Source: a virus
Virus record (IMG/VR): IMGVR_UViG_3300042914_002334
Location: 62,001 to 126,000 of that record
Direction: 5' to 3' (one strand)
DNA: 64,000 nt
The notes beneath the pieces are model-generated. The model searched no databases, was not told the origin of the DNA, and saw only the letters and a program-made list of their open reading frames with translations. Made by a program: the position numbers and the translations under genes. Positions 27,461 to 43,288 of the stretch are shown here, piece by piece. Numbering within the stretch: the stretch's first letter is position 1; the number at the start of each line of letters is the position of its first letter.

Positions 27461-28918
27461 ATGCGTGATCAAATACTTGAAATTATTAATACTCATCCAA
27501 AACACTATAGTTTATTGATTAAGAAAAACACAGCGTTACACAATTGGATAAAAGATAACTCGCAGATTGAGTGCGATCATTTTCCAACTATGATTTACAG
27601 TGCTGTATACGGAGTTAATCCAATATGTAGTAATAATAATCTAAAAAAGCTAACAAGATGGTCAACAGGGCTTGTTAACTGCGGAGCGGCAAATGTCTGT
27701 GCGTGTACTAAATCTGATATCTCTAAAAATGTAAGCGCAACTAAACAAAATTACAGTGAGCATCGCAAAACAGAAATAGAAGACAAAAGAAAAAGCACAA
27801 TGCTTCTCAATTACGGGGTTGAATATAACAGTCAGCGTGAATCGGTAAAGACAATATTAAAAACATCAAAATTAAAAGAACATCAATTTAACACGTTGAT
27901 TGACCGTGATTGGTTAGAGCGTGAGTATGTAGTAAATAAACGTACTGCCGTTGATATTTCTAATGAAATAGGCTGTCACGATAGTGCGGTTAGACGATAT
28001 GTAGCTCTACACGGATTTGATATTAGAAAATATAGTCAACGAAGTACATATGAATCAATGATTTGCCGTTGGCTAGACAATAACAATATACAGTATGAGA
28101 TTTGTAATAGAACTATTCTGAATGGAGCAGAAATAGACATTTACATACCAGCACACAAGTTAGCTATTGAAGTTAACGGTCTTTTATATCACAGCTATAA
28201 TCCAAATTCGTTTCATATTCTAAGACAAAAAAATAAAAAGGAAGAGCGAACAAGACACCTTAATAAAACTTTGTTAGCAAATGAAAAATCTGTTCATCTA
28301 TTACATCTAAATGATAATCAAATAAAAAATAAATGGGATGTTGTAACCAACATACTATCAAGTAAATTAAAACTACAGAATAAAATATGGGCCAGACAAT
28401 GCGAAATTGTAGAAGTTAATTCTGCTGAGCAACGAGAATTTTTTAATCGTGTTCATATTCAAGGATGGGTAGCATCAAAAAAAGCATACGGGTTATATTA
28501 TAACAGCAGATTAGTTCAATGTATTAGCGTTGGAAATAATCGGTATCGTTCCAATGAGTTAGAGATTTTAAGATTCGCCAGTGAAATGAATACTACTGTA
28601 GTTGGCGGATTGAGTAGATTACTAAAACATATTCAATCAATATTCTCAGATATCACTATAACAACTTACTGTGATAGAGATATCAGTAACGGTAACGGGT
28701 ATATCAGTGCTGGATTTAAAATTATTGAGTATACTAAACCTGGATATTTTTGGACTGATGGCACAGATATTATTAGTAGATACAAAACGCAAAAAACTCA
28801 ATTAAGTAAATGGTTGTCGCAATACAACTCTAATGAGAGTGAAAGTGTAAATATGTTTCGTGCTGGGTATCTGAGATATTGGAATACTGGTAATGTAGTA
28901 TTACGCTATGAGAAATAA
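27461..28918 (+). CDS. Free-standing homing endonuclease (EDxHD/Vsr-like)
   Basis: 485 aa. The N-terminal ~130 residues include a Cys-rich stretch (NCGAANVCACTKSD) and helical DNA-contact repeats. Residues ~150-185 look like a helix-turn-helix (NKRTAVDISNEIGCHDSAVR). A PD-(D/E)xK/Vsr-like nuclease core follows: TYESMICRWLDNNNIQYE, AEIDIYIP, LAIEVNGLLYHS. The C-terminal ~200 residues are probably a second binding domain. It is oriented against its neighbours, between gp23 and the packaging unit, with its own terminator. This is the typical arrangement of a mobile intergenic homing gene. Confidence 0.85.
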   Translation: MRDQILEIINTHPKHYSLLIKKNTALHNWIKDNSQIECDHFPTMIYSAVYGVNPICSNNNLKKLTRWSTGLVNCGAANVCACTKSDISKNVSATKQNYSEHRKTEIEDKRKSTMLLNYGVEYNSQRESVKTILKTSKLKEHQFNTLIDRDWLEREYVVNKRTAVDISNEIGCHDSAVRRYVALHGFDIRKYSQRSTYESMICRWLDNNNIQYEICNRTILNGAEIDIYIPAHKLAIEVNGLLYHSYNPNSFHILRQKNKKEERTRHLNKTLLANEKSVHLLHLNDNQIKNKWDVVTNILSSKLKLQNKIWARQCEIVEVNSAEQREFFNRVHIQGWVASKKAYGLYYNSRLVQCISVGNNRYRSNELEILRFASEMNTTVVGGLSRLLKHIQSIFSDITITTYCDRDISNGNGYISAGFKIIEYTKPGYFWTDGTDIISRYKTQKTQLSKWLSQYNSNESESVNMFRAGYLRYWNTGNVVLRYEK

Positions 28919-37594: not shown

Positions 37595-38419
37595 ATGAGC
37601 AACAATCCATTAAAACAATATTTTCGTCGCCCTGCTATTTACATCAAATTGCCAAGTGAAGGCAAGTATTACGACAAGTCTGTAGTAGAAACAACAGAAA
37701 TGGGCGATATTCCAATTTACCCAATGACTGTACTGGATGAAATAACAAGCAAAACTCCAGACGCCGTTTTCAACGGTCAAGCAGTAGTAGACATCATACA
37801 TAGTTGTGTTCCAAACATAAAGAATGCGTGGGAAATAAATGTAATAGACTTAGATGCAATTCTTGTTGCAATCAAAATTGCAAGTGCCGGAGAAAAAATG
37901 GGTGTCTCCACGGTTTGTCCACAATGCTCAACTGAAGCAGAATATGATATCGATCTCATACAAGTATTAAGTAATCAAAAGAATGTTGATTATAGTGTTC
38001 CATTAAAGATTCGAGAGTTAGAAATAAAATTTAAGCCTCTCACATATTTGGAAACAAACAAAAACAATCTTGCTCAATTTGAATTGCAAAAAGCATTACG
38101 CGATCTTGACGGATACGAAGATTCCGAAGAAAAACAAAAGATAATAAACAAAACAATGCTAAGTCTAAACAAAAAAGTTGCTGAAATTGTCGCTGCAACT
38201 ATCGAATTCATTAAAACTCCAGAATGTGTAGTATATGAAAAAGAATATATTGCAGAATTTTTAGAAGAATGTGACAAGATGACTAATAGTGCAATCAGAG
38301 ACAGAAGCGTTGATCTAAAGAGTCAAAGTCAATTGAAGCCGCTTCATCTTAAATGTCAAAATTGTTCTACTGAATATTCACAACAACTAACTCTAAATAT
38401 AACCGATTTTTTCGATTAA
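37595..38419 (+). CDS. 26: Baseplate hub/tape-measure chaperone, T4 gp26-like
   Basis: 274 aa, SD AAAAAGGAC. The N-terminal YFRRPAIYIKLPSEGKYYDK and IPIYPMTVLDEITSKTPDAV match the T4 gp26 family. Two CxxC pairs (C108/C111 and C254/C257) probably form a zinc ribbon. It ends ITDFFD. The last codons contain T TTT TTC followed after 5 bases by a 9-bp stem, predicting a -1 frameshift into the gp51-like frame. It diverges from the tape-measure gene. Confidence 0.88.
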   Translation: MSNNPLKQYFRRPAIYIKLPSEGKYYDKSVVETTEMGDIPIYPMTVLDEITSKTPDAVFNGQAVVDIIHSCVPNIKNAWEINVIDLDAILVAIKIASAGEKMGVSTVCPQCSTEAEYDIDLIQVLSNQKNVDYSVPLKIRELEIKFKPLTYLETNKNNLAQFELQKALRDLDGYEDSEEKQKIINKTMLSLNKKVAEIVAATIEFIKTPECVVYEKEYIAEFLEECDKMTNSAIRDRSVDLKSQSQLKPLHLKCQNCSTEYSQQLTLNITDFFD

Positions 38420-38457
38420 AGCTTCTTAAACTCGATCACGCAGAGATGAAGAAGCTT
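38405..38457 (+). other. Predicted -1 programmed ribosomal frameshift site
   Basis: Slippery heptamer T TTT TTC at 38407-38413, read in frame as GAT TTT TTC GAT TAA. After a 5-base spacer, AAGCTTCTT (38419-38427) pairs perfectly with AAGAAGCTT (38449-38457) across a 21-base loop. A -1 shift continues FFRLKLLKLDHAEMKKLG into the gp51-like frame and gives a product of about 349 aa. Confidence 0.8.
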
Positions 38458-38643
38458 GGTGATGACATGTGGCGTGAAGCACTTAATATCAGATCAGTTG
38501 CAATGAAAATGGCTTGGTATAGCCGTGGTAGCATGCAGTATGTCGATGTGCTCAATTTAAGCACTGACGAATTTAATCTGTTCAATAAACTAATAGATTC
38601 CAATTTGGAAACAACTAAGAAATCAAAACTGCCGTTCTTCTAA
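38446..38643 (+). CDS. 51: gp51-like hub assembly extension (frameshift partner of gp26)
   Basis: 65 aa if started at the ATG at 38446, product MKKLGDDMWREALNIRSVAM and so on, ending KSKLPFF. There is no good SD (only GCAGAG upstream). The frame is open back through 38407, where it meets the slippery site at the gp26 stop. Expression as a gp26-gp51 fusion is therefore likelier than free initiation. The cassette resembles the lambda G/GT tail chaperones. gp51 and gp26 are both needed for T4 hub assembly. Much shorter than T4 gp51 (249 aa). Confidence 0.75.
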   Translation: MKKLGDDMWREALNIRSVAMKMAWYSRGSMQYVDVLNLSTDEFNLFNKLIDSNLETTKKSKLPFF

Positions 38644-38665
38644 AAACGAGAGCCCATGGCCTCGT

Positions 38666-38700
38666 TTGCCAGATGCCTCTTTGAGGCATCTGGCAATTTT
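38666..38700 (+). terminator. Strong rho-independent terminator
   Basis: 14-bp stem (38666-38679 with 38683-38696), TTT loop, then TTTT. It ends the gp26/gp51 unit. A smaller AAACGAG/CTCGTTT hairpin overlaps its left side. Confidence 0.92.
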
Positions 38701-38805
38701 ACTTCTTCATTCGTGTAATACATACAGAGAATTTAAAGTAGATATATGTGCGCAATATCTATGTTTATTAGTCATATGCATGCACTTATATGTGTGAGAT
38801 AAAAG

Positions 38806-38813
38806 TATAAATG
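38806..38813 (+). promoter_or_regulatory. Late-promoter-like TATAAATG before structured region
   Basis: One mismatch from TATAAATA, on the plus strand about 10 bases before the first hairpin of the structured-RNA candidate. Confidence 0.35.
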
Positions 38814-38819
38814 TAAAAC

Positions 38820-39330
38820 TCTGAATTGCTCAGTTGAGCGAAGCGACAGCGGAGTGACTGAGCAATTCTGGCGGAAGAGCGCAGCGAAACCGCCACTAAG
38901 ACAGCATTATTGACTGTAGTTATAACGGATAAAACTCGCTCAGTTGGAAGAAGAGACTTCATCATCCTCCCCCTTGTTCTTTGAAGACGGCTATTTTTCA
39001 CCGTGGGAAGAACGTTCGTCGAACCACCAAAACCCTTTAATTTTTTGCCCGTTGATCTGTCAGGCGCAGTTAGAGTCTGGCCTAAGGACGGGAGCATCGG
39101 TTCCGAATCTATTGAGTAAATCCATACTCCATTCGGTGCTCCCCACTAGTTTACCCACTGTGATCTTAGTATTGTCCGATCTTCAACAGTGCTTCTCCGT
39201 AAGCAGTAGAGGCTGTACTTACAACGTTTCTAGTTATTTTATACAGGTCTGTTGTTTGACCTGTGCTAATCTACCTTTTTCGTAGACCCATTGATCACTG
39301 TAAATATCTTACAGTGAAAGTTTCTTTTCT
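38820..39330. ncRNA. Candidate large structured non-coding RNA
   Basis: About 500 bases without a convincing gene but packed with perfect or nested stems. These are 38823-38834/38857-38868 (12 bp), 38869-38874/38890-38895, 38976-38981/39008-39013 enclosing 38987-38990/39001-39004, and 39090-39096/39137-39143 enclosing 39103-39108/39131-39136 enclosing 39114-39118/39125-39129. Further stems are 39156-39161/39186-39191, 39199-39206/39213-39222, 39243-39249/39258-39264 and 39296-39303/39309-39316. Strand is uncertain. Plus is favoured by TATAAATG upstream and a T-rich tract after the last hairpin. Minus is favoured by hairpin 38823-38868 followed by AGAGTTTT. I see no tmRNA, RNase P, group I/II intron or tRNA signature. 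Confidence 0.55.
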
Positions 39331-39512
39331 ATCAATAAAACTGTTCCATCCTTTTTTATAACTCTAAGAATTGATGGTTTATTCTCATCAATCTTTTTTG
39401 ATTTTAGTTTTAACTTACTGTTATTTTTTCTTGCAGCATCAGCAGCGGCAGAACGCTTTTTTAATTTTTTCGCTTTGTTCCAGCGAATTATGTCTCTTCG
39501 GTCGCAATGCAT
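39309..39512 (-). CDS. Small very basic protein next to structured region
   Basis: 67 aa. The N-terminal half is rich in Lys/Arg/Ala (NKAKKLKKRSAAADAARKNN), the C-terminal half has SILRVIKKDGTVLLIEKKLS. No domain is recognised. Its charge suits nucleic-acid binding. Its TAA lies inside the last hairpin (39296-39316) of the structured-RNA candidate. It could bind that RNA or act as a ribosomal-like factor; both are guesses. Confidence 0.6.
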   Translation of the reverse strand: MHCDRRDIIRWNKAKKLKKRSAAADAARKNNSKLKLKSKKIDENKPSILRVIKKDGTVLLIEKKLSL

Positions 39513-39585: not shown

Positions 39586-40128
39586 CTACGAAATATGATT
39601 TGTTTCTAATAATATTTGTCTGTTTGAAAAGTTTTTGAGTTGAGTAGTGTTGAGATTGAAAAATATATCGAATGAGTAGATAAGCCATGCACCCCAATTT
39701 TTGCTGTGATAGCACAGAACATTGGCACTATTACTATTCCAATTTTCTTTTTCTTGAACTGCAACAAACTTTCCACGACGATTAAACTTTATAAAAAGTA
39801 TGTTCAAGTCGTTGGAGTCTGCTGCGGTCATTAGTTGTGCTATCCAATCTTCAAGTTGTTTAGACTCAACGAACAATTGGTGAAAAGCAAAATCAGCGTA
39901 GAACTTTGCTTCGCAATTAAAATTAGGGAAACTTTCTCCAGGAACAATATCCCCTTTGAAACTTCTAACTTGATTCTCATGCAGAACCTGACGACGAGCA
40001 CTGTTTATTCCGCCAGTATACGCTCCACTTCCTGGCGATCTAATAAAAGATTCTCCATAAAGATCACTCAGATATTTTGCAATTTCTCGTTCGAACCCGC
40101 TTCCCTTAATCTTACTCGCTGATGGCAT
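39586..40128 (-). CDS. Hjc-like PD-(D/E)xK nuclease, possible Holliday junction resolvase
   Basis: 180 aa. It has the archaeal-Hjc/phage-resolvase layout: KIKGSGFEREIAKYLSDLYG with Glu in FERE, IRSPGSGAYTGG, GDIVP with the metal-binding Asp, and NCEAKFYADF with the ExK pair. C-terminal to this are FIKFNRRGKFVAVQ and a helical end. T4 uses the unrelated endonuclease VII (gp49). Position just downstream of gp46/gp47 supports a recombination role. Substrate specificity is inferred. Confidence 0.75.
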   Translation of the reverse strand: MPSASKIKGSGFEREIAKYLSDLYGESFIRSPGSGAYTGGINSARRQVLHENQVRSFKGDIVPGESFPNFNCEAKFYADFAFHQLFVESKQLEDWIAQLMTAADSNDLNILFIKFNRRGKFVAVQEKENWNSNSANVLCYHSKNWGAWLIYSFDIFFNLNTTQLKNFSNRQILLETNHIS

Positions 40129-40163: not shown

Positions 40164-42242
40164 TTATTCCACATCAACTGCACCAGAGAACGAAGTGAAT
40201 CCGCTTTCTTTAATTACTTTTAACACCGAAGATACTCTGTTGATTAGTTCATCGCGATGACTTACTAACCATATTGATTTAGAACGGCGACGAGTCATAT
40301 CTTTCAGTAGCGCCAAACTATTTTCTACGCCGATGGAGTCCATTCCATTATCAATCAACTCGTCAATAAACAACAAATTAGAATTATGATATAGATTTTC
40401 ATATACATCGCGAAACGCGAAACTAAGTCCCAGAATCAATCGATTACGCTCCCCTCTGCTAAGATTATCAAAATCCAAATCTCGTCCTAGTTCAGTAATT
40501 TCAACGCTTAGATCATTTTGAAACACCACACTGTGTGGCAAACCTATTTTGTCCAAGTAGTGAGTCAATCGTGAGTTAAGATACGAAAGATTTTGCTCAA
40601 TGATTTTTTTGCGAACAAACGACTTCTTGTTAGTTAGTAAGTCAAGCAAGTAATCTTGATGTTGAAGAACACTAATCAGATTGTTCATATCAGTGTAATC
40701 AACCGTCTGAATAGCATTCGTTTGCATTTCAACTATCTGCTCTGCATACGGGTCTTCTTCTGCATGCTTTCGTTCAATTTGTTCCAATAAAGAAGATACT
40801 CGCCCGCTGTGTTTGATCGCTTCTTCTTCGGTATCATAATGAGTTTTTGGCATTTCGCCTATGTTTGTAATAGTATTTTCTGCTAATTGATCTTCATAAG
40901 GATCAGACTCTGCTTTTTTGGATGCTATCTTTGCACGAATAGATTCAATCTCACTACTATGTCTAATTGCTTCTGTTTCTGTTTTATAGTGAGTGGTTGG
41001 TTTTTCTGGAACAATAATTTCATTAGATACAATGTCCGTCCAATTTTTGAGAGTTCGGTTGTATTCTTTCTCTGAATGCTTCAATTCTTTTCGTTTTTGC
41101 TTCAAGACTATATTATGATTTTTGTCATGAAACTCTTGCCCGCAAGCATAACAACGATGCTCAGTTAGTTCATAAATCTCTTTTGTTAGTTGCTCTGTAT
41201 TTTTAACGAACAACAGATTTTCATCATGGGCTTGCTTTTTGGATTTTTCCCACATCTGACGATCTTTGATCGCGTTGTTGTATAGAATCAAATCTCTATG
41301 CGATTTTAGTTCAGCGTCAATGTCTATCTCGGAAAGAGATACAAGAGAACGCTCCAATTCACTGATTTCTTCTGAAATCTTTTGACGCCATGCAGTTCTT
41401 CTTGCAAGAAGAGAATTGTATCGATTTAATTTTTCTAAATTGGAAACATAAACGGTCAGGTCTTTATGTGCTTTTAGTTCTGAGTCAATATCTATTTTAC
41501 TCAACTCGTCATATTCGACCACCAAAGCCGCCAAATCTTCGTTTCTTTTAGCCGTCCATAATTTTTGACGCTTTTTTAGACTTTCGATTTGTTCTGTAAT
41601 TTTTTGATTTGCAGTTTGGATTCCGTTTATCTTAAATTCTTCTTTTTGAATCAACTCTTTTGTTGTCTTATTAAGATTCTTTATTGCCTCTGCCTTTTCA
41701 CTCAGCAAAGTAATTCCAAGCAATTGCTCGATAATAGGTCGCTGTTCACCAACTCGCATACTTAGAAACGGAGTAGTATAACTGTTCAGACCTACTATGT
41801 GAGGGAATAGATCACCAGACATAGACAATATACGCTCAATCGACGCTTGAGTTTCTTTGTTTTCTCCCTGGGCGTCATTATCAGAATTAGACTGTTCTTT
41901 ATCATTTACAAAGAACTTTAAGATGTTGGGCTTTCTACCTCGTATGATCTTATAATTGACATCGTTTACCGAGAATTCTATGGTTGCTACCATATTCTTG
42001 GAATTAGTTCGATTTATAAGGTTGTCTTTTTTGATCTGATTTATGGGACTTCCAAATAGAGCATAACTTAGTCCCTGCAAGATAGCCGTCTTTCCAACAC
42101 CGTTTCGAGCACCATCTCCGCCCATATCCATGTTCTCACCCAGAATTAGAGTAAGATTTTTGTTTTCAAAGTCTATACTCTGAGTGACATTTCCAATGCT
42201 TAAAAAGTTTTTTAGCGTTAAATTTTTGAATATTATGGTCAT
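40164..42242 (-). CDS. 46: Recombination endonuclease subunit gp46 (Rad50/SbcC-like)
   Basis: 692 aa. The N-terminal ATPase half has Walker A in GARNGVGKTAIL. Two long coiled coils (~180-480) flank the zinc hook CYACGQ (~366). The C-terminal half has the ABC signature LSRGERNRLILGLS and Walker B/D-loop LLFIDELIDNGMD. With gp47 it resects DNA ends to make ssDNA for UvsX. Its ATG overlaps the gp47 stop by 4 bases. Confidence 0.94.
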   Translation of the reverse strand: MTIIFKNLTLKNFLSIGNVTQSIDFENKNLTLILGENMDMGGDGARNGVGKTAILQGLSYALFGSPINQIKKDNLINRTNSKNMVATIEFSVNDVNYKIIRGRKPNILKFFVNDKEQSNSDNDAQGENKETQASIERILSMSGDLFPHIVGLNSYTTPFLSMRVGEQRPIIEQLLGITLLSEKAEAIKNLNKTTKELIQKEEFKINGIQTANQKITEQIESLKKRQKLWTAKRNEDLAALVVEYDELSKIDIDSELKAHKDLTVYVSNLEKLNRYNSLLARRTAWRQKISEEISELERSLVSLSEIDIDAELKSHRDLILYNNAIKDRQMWEKSKKQAHDENLLFVKNTEQLTKEIYELTEHRCYACGQEFHDKNHNIVLKQKRKELKHSEKEYNRTLKNWTDIVSNEIIVPEKPTTHYKTETEAIRHSSEIESIRAKIASKKAESDPYEDQLAENTITNIGEMPKTHYDTEEEAIKHSGRVSSLLEQIERKHAEEDPYAEQIVEMQTNAIQTVDYTDMNNLISVLQHQDYLLDLLTNKKSFVRKKIIEQNLSYLNSRLTHYLDKIGLPHSVVFQNDLSVEITELGRDLDFDNLSRGERNRLILGLSFAFRDVYENLYHNSNLLFIDELIDNGMDSIGVENSLALLKDMTRRRSKSIWLVSHRDELINRVSSVLKVIKESGFTSFSGAVDVE

Positions 42243-43252
42243 AGATTTTGGTAGATATCCAATAAAAGTTTCTTGTCAAACTGTCCATCAGACAATTGTT
42301 GTATTTGTTCTTGTATGATACTATCAACCGACTCAAATTTCATGTTTGTGTAGTCCGTATTGTCTTGTTCAATATCAAGTTTTGTTGGAATCAAGTGCAT
42401 CTCTCTTAAATGATATTTTGGAAGAAGTTGCTCTCGTATAAAGTTGCTTTCTTCATACGATACGTCGATGTCCAAATTGATTCGAACGTGCATATCTCGT
42501 TGCAACAATGATTCGTCGCTAAGTATTTCACTTAACTTATACACTCTGAATCTTGGTTGATCGGGCCAACTTAAGAATTCTGACTCGCCATTCCAATCCA
42601 AAATCATCATTCCACGATCATCATCGTTTACATCGGAGTAATTATGAGGGAATGCGTTACCGATATAGGTAATATTTTTTCTAACTTGTCTTTTGTGAAA
42701 ATGCCCACTGAATACATGCTCAAAAGAACTCATGTGTTCTGCTTGCAGTTCTCCGTGATCTGGCATTTCTACTAACGAATTCATATAAAAATGTGGAAGT
42801 TCAAAATGTCCAAATAAGTATTTTCCGGACATGTTTTTGAGTTTTTTCCAATCATCTTCGACCAACCACGGAGCGATGATTACCTCTCCAGATTGAAAAA
42901 AATCATCTACAATTTTAACGTTTGATAAATGTTTTGCCCACTCAACGCTGTGAATATCACGTTTGTCTCTATAGTAGAGATCGTGATTTCCAGCAATAAA
43001 AAACACTTGATCAAACGACTCGTTTAGTCGCTCAAGTGCTCGTAATCCAAATTGAAGAGTTTGTATGTTGATGCTTGCTCTATGATGATTCCAATCACCT
43101 AAAAAGAAGCATACATCGCATCCCTTTTTCTTTGCAGTTTCAATAAACCAATTTACAAAATTGGTGCAATCGATATTGTGTTGTAAACTGTTACTCTTAA
43201 GTCCCCAATGAACATCTGTGAAAACTGCTGCTTTGTTAAATAATTTACTCAT
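42239..43252 (-). CDS. 47: Recombination endonuclease subunit gp47 (Mre11/SbcD-like)
   Basis: 337 aa from the ATG at 43250-43252 (MSKLFNKAAVFTDVHWG). The calcineurin-like phosphoesterase motifs are FTDVHWG, FLGDWNHHR, AGNHDLYY and FSGHFHKRQ, which supply the two-metal site. The reading frame extends 12 codons upstream, but the -10 (TATTAT, 43259-43264) lies there, so the ATG chosen would sit at about +1. It is the nuclease partner of gp46. Confidence 0.93.
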   Translation of the reverse strand: MSKLFNKAAVFTDVHWGLKSNSLQHNIDCTNFVNWFIETAKKKGCDVCFFLGDWNHHRASINIQTLQFGLRALERLNESFDQVFFIAGNHDLYYRDKRDIHSVEWAKHLSNVKIVDDFFQSGEVIIAPWLVEDDWKKLKNMSGKYLFGHFELPHFYMNSLVEMPDHGELQAEHMSSFEHVFSGHFHKRQVRKNITYIGNAFPHNYSDVNDDDRGMMILDWNGESEFLSWPDQPRFRVYKLSEILSDESLLQRDMHVRINLDIDVSYEESNFIREQLLPKYHLREMHLIPTKLDIEQDNTDYTNMKFESVDSIIQEQIQQLSDGQFDKKLLLDIYQNL

Positions 43253-43258
43253 CACGAC

Positions 43259-43288
43259 ATAATAGCAAAAACCTTGACGATAAATCAA
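43259..43288 (-). promoter_or_regulatory. sigma70-type promoter of gp47-gp46
   Basis: TTGATT (43283-43288), 18 bp, TATTAT (43259-43264). The -10 is 6 bases from the gp47 ATG. Confidence 0.6.

Follow-up and report, generated by a model that had tools for sequence, protein, structure and literature searches.

The locus described here raises the question of what, if not a protein, is encoded in a gene-free stretch between convergent phage genes. It lies in a window of 64,000 nucleotides, which is the whole stretch of DNA that was analysed, taken from a 141-kb virus record with T4-type genes; among named phages its portal has relatives at less than 60% identity, of which jumbo phages (e.g. Phosso, Atu_ph07 and PA5oct-type) come closest. 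On the plus strand, a T4-type baseplate hub gene (gp26-like, 37595-38419; PF12322 4.9e-16, phrog_150), used as flanking marker, is followed by a 65-aa ORF (38446-38643) that homologous loci identify as a conserved border of the slot. The operon of these two genes terminates early, at 38696, by its own 14-bp intrinsic terminator (38666-38696, plus strand; 14 pairs and a TTTTACTTCT tail in the terminator scan). The other border, on the minus strand, is a PDDEXK nuclease gene (RusA-like, 39586-40128; PF24608 1.7e-26, phrog_244), and upstream of it on that strand are the gp46/gp47 (SbcC/SbcD-like) recombination nuclease genes (40164-43288; phrog_77, phrog_100). This sub-lineage also has a 67-aa ORF (39309-39512, minus strand) that separates the nuclease gene from the RNA described below, with 55% identity in L009 and missing from compact relatives; a terminator-like hairpin on the plus strand (39295-39317) overlaps its end. 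From 38644 to 39308 no gene was found, only chance ORFs, in agreement with the preliminary description, which had proposed a large structured RNA in a gene-free array of inverted repeats at 38700-39330. The repeats were likewise located, among them a 12-bp hairpin (38823-38868), a two-tier helix (38976-39013) and a three-tier helix (39090-39143).

Both strands of this stretch fold well, because the inverted repeats are symmetric. The minus strand reaches -167.0 kcal/mol (z = -4.64) and the plus strand -148.4 kcal/mol (z = -2.67), none of 100 dinucleotide shuffles being as good in either case. Such single-sequence z-scores are not decisive alone, since the window contains several more 200-base pieces that score equally low (those at 28801, 9601, 30401, 44401, 44801 and 18401 give z of about -4 to -5 for at least one strand), and it is the comparative evidence that decides the case for a structured RNA. 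The good folding of both strands would also suit an element acting as DNA through its inverted repeats, such as a replication origin or a recombination or packaging site, and its neighbours are indeed recombination nucleases and portal/baseplate genes. We regard such an element as very unlikely, given that the paired positions tolerate G-U and not A-C, and that loops are conserved while stems change.

Relatives were reached through the neighbouring proteins, whose matches pointed to viral contigs sharing this gene order. Alignment of the noncoding region gave 82% identity in L009 and weaker similarity in L003, L004 and L005; a motif search added L029, L031, L032 and then two near-identical contig groups (L034/L042 and L039/L048 types), and a profile search over the protein-fetched loci added L059 and L081. 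Together with the window, these 11 other viral sequences make up 12 different members of what we call family A, all in the same slot, where the RNA shares its strand with PDDEXK, gp46 and gp47 and faces the hub gene and the 65-aa ORF. A covariance model was built from eight aligned compact members with a hand-drawn structure, the window being kept out of the training set. It recovered all four untrained members (window, L009, L029 and L003) in the same slot with E-values from 7e-11 to 5e-7, and no further family A match in more than 1 megabase of related phage DNA. The window belongs to the family both by its match (39234-39042, minus strand, 50.8 bits, E = 7e-11) and by its position between PDDEXK and the 65-aa ORF.

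In the 12-member alignment, which rests on 11 distinct core sequences and leans towards the hand-drawn structure because it was fitted to it, 95.8% of the base-pair cells in the core are paired. Compensatory changes occur in 17 of 26 core pairs (9.0 ± 1.8 when shuffled), and the covariation score is 0.510, against 0.205 for shuffled alignments and at most 0.113 with partners slid. The comparison of homologues establishes a core in which seven or more helices covary and unpaired loops are conserved. The covariation check proposed in the preliminary description therefore left its structured RNA standing. A conserved protein frame, named there beforehand as the finding that would count against an RNA, was not seen: even the longest ORFs in these slots of the homologues are short, and they differ in frame and strand. 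Taken with the lack of an Rfam match described below, these results strongly support a large structured phage RNA.

Among the paired positions of family A, G-U cells outnumber A-C cells by 21 to 4, and therefore the minus strand is the RNA strand. The preliminary description had instead seen a late-promoter-like sequence ahead of it on the plus strand, an orientation that found no support. Such a late transcript would run from TATAAATG (38806), a late-promoter-like site with one mismatch, to the terminator-like hairpin at 39295-39317. We consider it extremely improbable: the site is not kept in L009, the plus-strand fold is weaker and the G-U/A-C asymmetry favours the minus strand. With a minus-strand RNA, TATAAATG (38806-38813) falls inside the T-rich tail that belongs to the 3' hairpin and is not the promoter of this RNA. 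No convincing promoter candidate was recognised on the RNA strand. Copies of a repeat (GTTCGAAC..GAGATAAAG.GGTCGATCTAC) stand immediately before the RNA in L003, L004, L005 and L029; as a genome-wide promoter motif the repeat was rejected in L005, whose record holds just these two copies.

The family A RNA, comprising the core and two 3' hairpins, extends over 38806-39264 (minus strand) and measures about 450 nt, its 5' end being at 39264 or further upstream. All its parts are given here on the minus strand. Helix P1 (39243-39264, ACAGGTC-AAACAACA-GACCTGT) was recognised by family A comparison; its stem is variable, and its loop CAAACAA is kept in 11 of the 12 members. P2 (39199-39222) covaries, with GTAAGT/GCTTAC in the window, GTGAGT/GCTCAC in L009 and CAGACA/TGTCTG in L042. 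Covariation also supports P3 (CACTGT/ACAGTG) and P4, which lie at 39156-39191 with the conserved loop GGACAATACTAA. P4 is paired in 100% of cells and has compensatory changes at three of four pairs, reading GATC/GATC in the window, GAGU/GCUC in L032, GCGC/GCGC in L048 and GUGG/CCAC in L031, while the conserved loop ends in CAAUACUAA. The three-tier nested hairpin, apparent from the sequence (39090-39143; GGGAGCA/TGCTCCC, CCGAAT/ATTCGG and GAGTA/TACTC), is replaced in the compact relatives by P6, a short hairpin capped by GGAA. P7 (39047-39065, GCCTG/CGGGC, loop ACAGATCAA) is paired in 97.6% of cells with compensatory changes at all four pairs. With this helix, whose arms at 39047-39051 and 39061-39065 are backed by the homologues, competes the CCCGT/ACGGG pairing proposed earlier as an enclosure at 39047-39091, which we have therefore dropped.

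Family A comparison further defined P8 (39005-39037), with the most conserved motif of all, GGTGGTTCGACGAACGTTCT, and P9 (38987-39004, ACGG/CCGT, conserved loop TGAAAAATAG), whose stem varies in sequence among members around GAAAAAUA while pairing is maintained. It also revealed a conserved G-run, GGGGGAGGA (38965-38973), which in the compact relatives can pair with a UCCC-type segment 5' of P6, a candidate pseudoknot. Two 3' hairpins with UCGCUNCGCUC-type loops close the element, the first at 38869-38895 (TCGCTGCGCTC loop) and the second, of 12 bp and visible in the window sequence as well as in the family, at 38823-38868 (TCGCTTCGCTC loop); this loop motif occurs just twice in the 141-kb record, both times in this element. 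In most members a T-rich tail follows the last hairpin (38806-38822 in the window), and the two probably form a terminator, which the terminator scan omits because the loop exceeds the length that it allows.

Does this RNA belong to a known class? At the gathering threshold, Rfam 15 gave no match for the window stretch or its relatives, and relaxed thresholds (E<=10 for the window; E<=5 for L031, L005 and L009) gave matches at chance level only. A Glutamine-II candidate at 39047-39094 (E 0.63) was rejected, because it is on the opposite strand and its score is well short of the gathering cutoff. Nucleotide searches against named phages found nothing for family A and only chance matches for the family B described below; the exact motifs of both families were absent from bacterial genomes, and no description of either RNA was found in the literature. 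As judged by these searches, family A is previously undescribed and absent from Rfam 15; family B, too, is missing from Rfam.

Few large ornate RNAs are known, and what they do is poorly understood. GOLLD often lies beside tRNA islands, increases in expression during phage lysis and forms a homo-oligomeric nanocage, while ROOL is an ordered nanocage built by kissing loops. The preliminary description had likened the present element to GOLLD, and the likeness stands in kind, both being large structured phage RNAs; it does not extend to membership, as neither the gathering nor the relaxed thresholds gave a match to the GOLLD model in the window or its relatives, the 64-kb window has no tRNA, and family A is shorter (about 450 nt, many GOLLD RNAs exceeding 800) and bound to a fixed baseplate-hub/recombination slot. 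GOLLD has been described as a large noncoding RNA found in phages and prophages, highly structured and made up of one conserved and one variable part, and ROOL as a large ornate phage RNA with pseudoknots; both form RNA-only cages, and the function of each is unknown (PMC12286853). The ROOL model matched neither the window nor its relatives, and family A differs from ROOL in being shorter than a 659-nt example, in having other neighbours and in lacking tRNAs nearby. OLE is another large ornate RNA class (PMC12286853, PMC12054373); it is found mostly in Bacillota extremophiles and anaerobes, not in phages, and no Rfam match to it appeared here. A ribozyme or intron of a known class (group I/II, RNase P, tmRNA), or else a GOLLD or ROOL member too divergent for Rfam, would account for a large and partly pseudoknotted RNA in a phage, where GOLLD and ROOL are themselves large RNAs (PMC12286853). 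We find this highly improbable, since the Rfam matches do not rise above chance even when relaxed, no group I/II intron core was matched, the element sits between genes and splits no host gene, and there are no tRNAs.

The address of the RNA proved more constant than the RNA itself. Among 132 loci with convergent PDDEXK and 65-aa ORF, the gap measures 411-1216 nt and is filled in nearly all by family A or by an unrelated RNA, family B, which occupies the slot in most related phages. By profile search 45 loci carry A and 85 carry B, contigs fetched more than once with overlap being counted each time, and even at E = 10 neither profile matched a locus of the other family. Family B is present in over 100 contigs (among them L087:4360-4679, minus strand, L093 and L174; the motif scan gave at least 120 stretches) with a near-invariant neighbourhood. 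When contigs were chosen solely by family B sequence, then among the matches listed that have enough flank PDDEXK immediately precedes the RNA in 96 of 98 and the 65-aa ORF immediately follows it in 103 of 105; the exceptions among these are two with wider spacing and two without a detectable PDDEXK neighbour. In 37 dereplicated members, 97.8% of cells are paired, 38 of 64 pairs have compensatory changes, the covariation score is 0.432 (0.152 shuffled) and G-U cells number 97 against 3 A-C cells. One pair of a pseudoknot helix covaries as U-A 29, A-U 4, C-G 2 and G-C 1.

Families A and B thus share slot, strand, size class, a complex covarying fold and related phage hosts, whereas their cores differ, that of B having a covarying pseudoknot. 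Neither blastn, profile HMMs nor covariance models detected homology between them, and the window matched neither the family B profile nor the B model R2. Both contain a TGGAGTAAG string and a similar UCCC/GGGA pseudoknot, a candidate one in A, which prove nothing on homology.

Other slots appear to hold further kinds. L051 and L053 carry family A's 3' hairpins joined to a different 5' core, suggesting an exchange of the 5' core; the two cores look alike and probably represent a third RNA kind, C, an impression from two sequences. Motifs seen in them are GGGGC..TGAC..TAGCCCTC, GGAATAAAC and GTGATAAACA. L119 and L024, which share GATTGGGCTCTG and GGGGTACCGG motifs and 65.7% identity over 140 nt, are a probable fourth structured kind, D, again an impression from two sequences. 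Since ornate RNAs of other kinds (B, probably also C and D) stand here in related phages, it appears that the role of the slot stays RNA-based through replacement or rewriting of the RNA that fills it.

In this sense, we consider it likely that the minus strand from 39264 to 38806 gives a noncoding, trans-acting RNA of about 450 nt, GOLLD/ROOL-like in kind, in a slot that keeps an RNA-based role; its strand, covarying core and fixed genome slot are established by comparison. It would be co-transcribed with gp47, gp46 and PDDEXK or processed out of their transcript, would end at the 3' hairpin with the T-rich tail, and may fold by itself and, during infection, act in trans through this fold, whether as scaffold, decoy or RNA-only assembly. 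The main alternative is a cis-acting 3' UTR, a structured tail of the gp47-gp46-PDDEXK mRNA controlling its stability, processing or termination. In nearly all contigs the RNA is directly downstream on the same strand, and its association with recombination genes is fixed; moreover, family B starts some tens of bases past the PDDEXK stop codon, leaving little room for a promoter of its own, so that a separate transcript is not assured and a 3' UTR element fits as well. Nevertheless, with its many helices and conserved loops, and in B a pseudoknot as well, the RNA is far more elaborate than a 3' end needs, and it is intact despite genes inserted after PDDEXK in several lineages. On account of this complexity and these insertions, an RNA gene acting in trans is favoured over a UTR only, which we judge unlikely though deserving some weight. 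The small ORFs that intervene between PDDEXK and the RNA (the 67-aa ORF in the window and L009, others in L029 and L051, and small ORFs again in L053) speak for a trans-acting rather than a PDDEXK-specific RNA.

The history of the slot can be read against a tree of the hub protein, in which the family A phages, together with L051 and L053, make up a single well-supported cluster nested among the family B phages (SH-aLRT 99, quick method). This nesting indicates that the slot is orthologous and that the RNA was replaced or rewritten: family B is probably the older content, and family A would be either a replacement or B rewritten beyond recognition. More tentatively, and with somewhat less than even confidence, we propose that a T4-like, often jumbo phage lineage keeps a slot for a large trans-acting RNA that has been repeatedly replaced or rewritten, each time as an ornate fold unrelated to the others (A and B, probably C and D too), which may reflect RNA gene turnover comparable to that of an arms-race protein, or several independent inventions of one RNA-only machine. 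With our study, environmental phages yield two more RNA families that covariation supports, both at a fixed genome address and one of them in more than 100 contigs. This shared address offers a comparative handle, as phages of known relationship have different RNAs in one place; if the slot RNAs can substitute for each other, a common role becomes testable, and if they form cages, they would tell how general RNA-only assemblies are. A cultivated jumbo phage, Pseudomonas phage PA5oct, adds a minor observation: in its record PDDEXK is reversed in orientation relative to the slot and neither the A nor the B model matches L211:4500-5000, a stretch between hub and PDDEXK that has no annotated genes and folds with a z of about -9.
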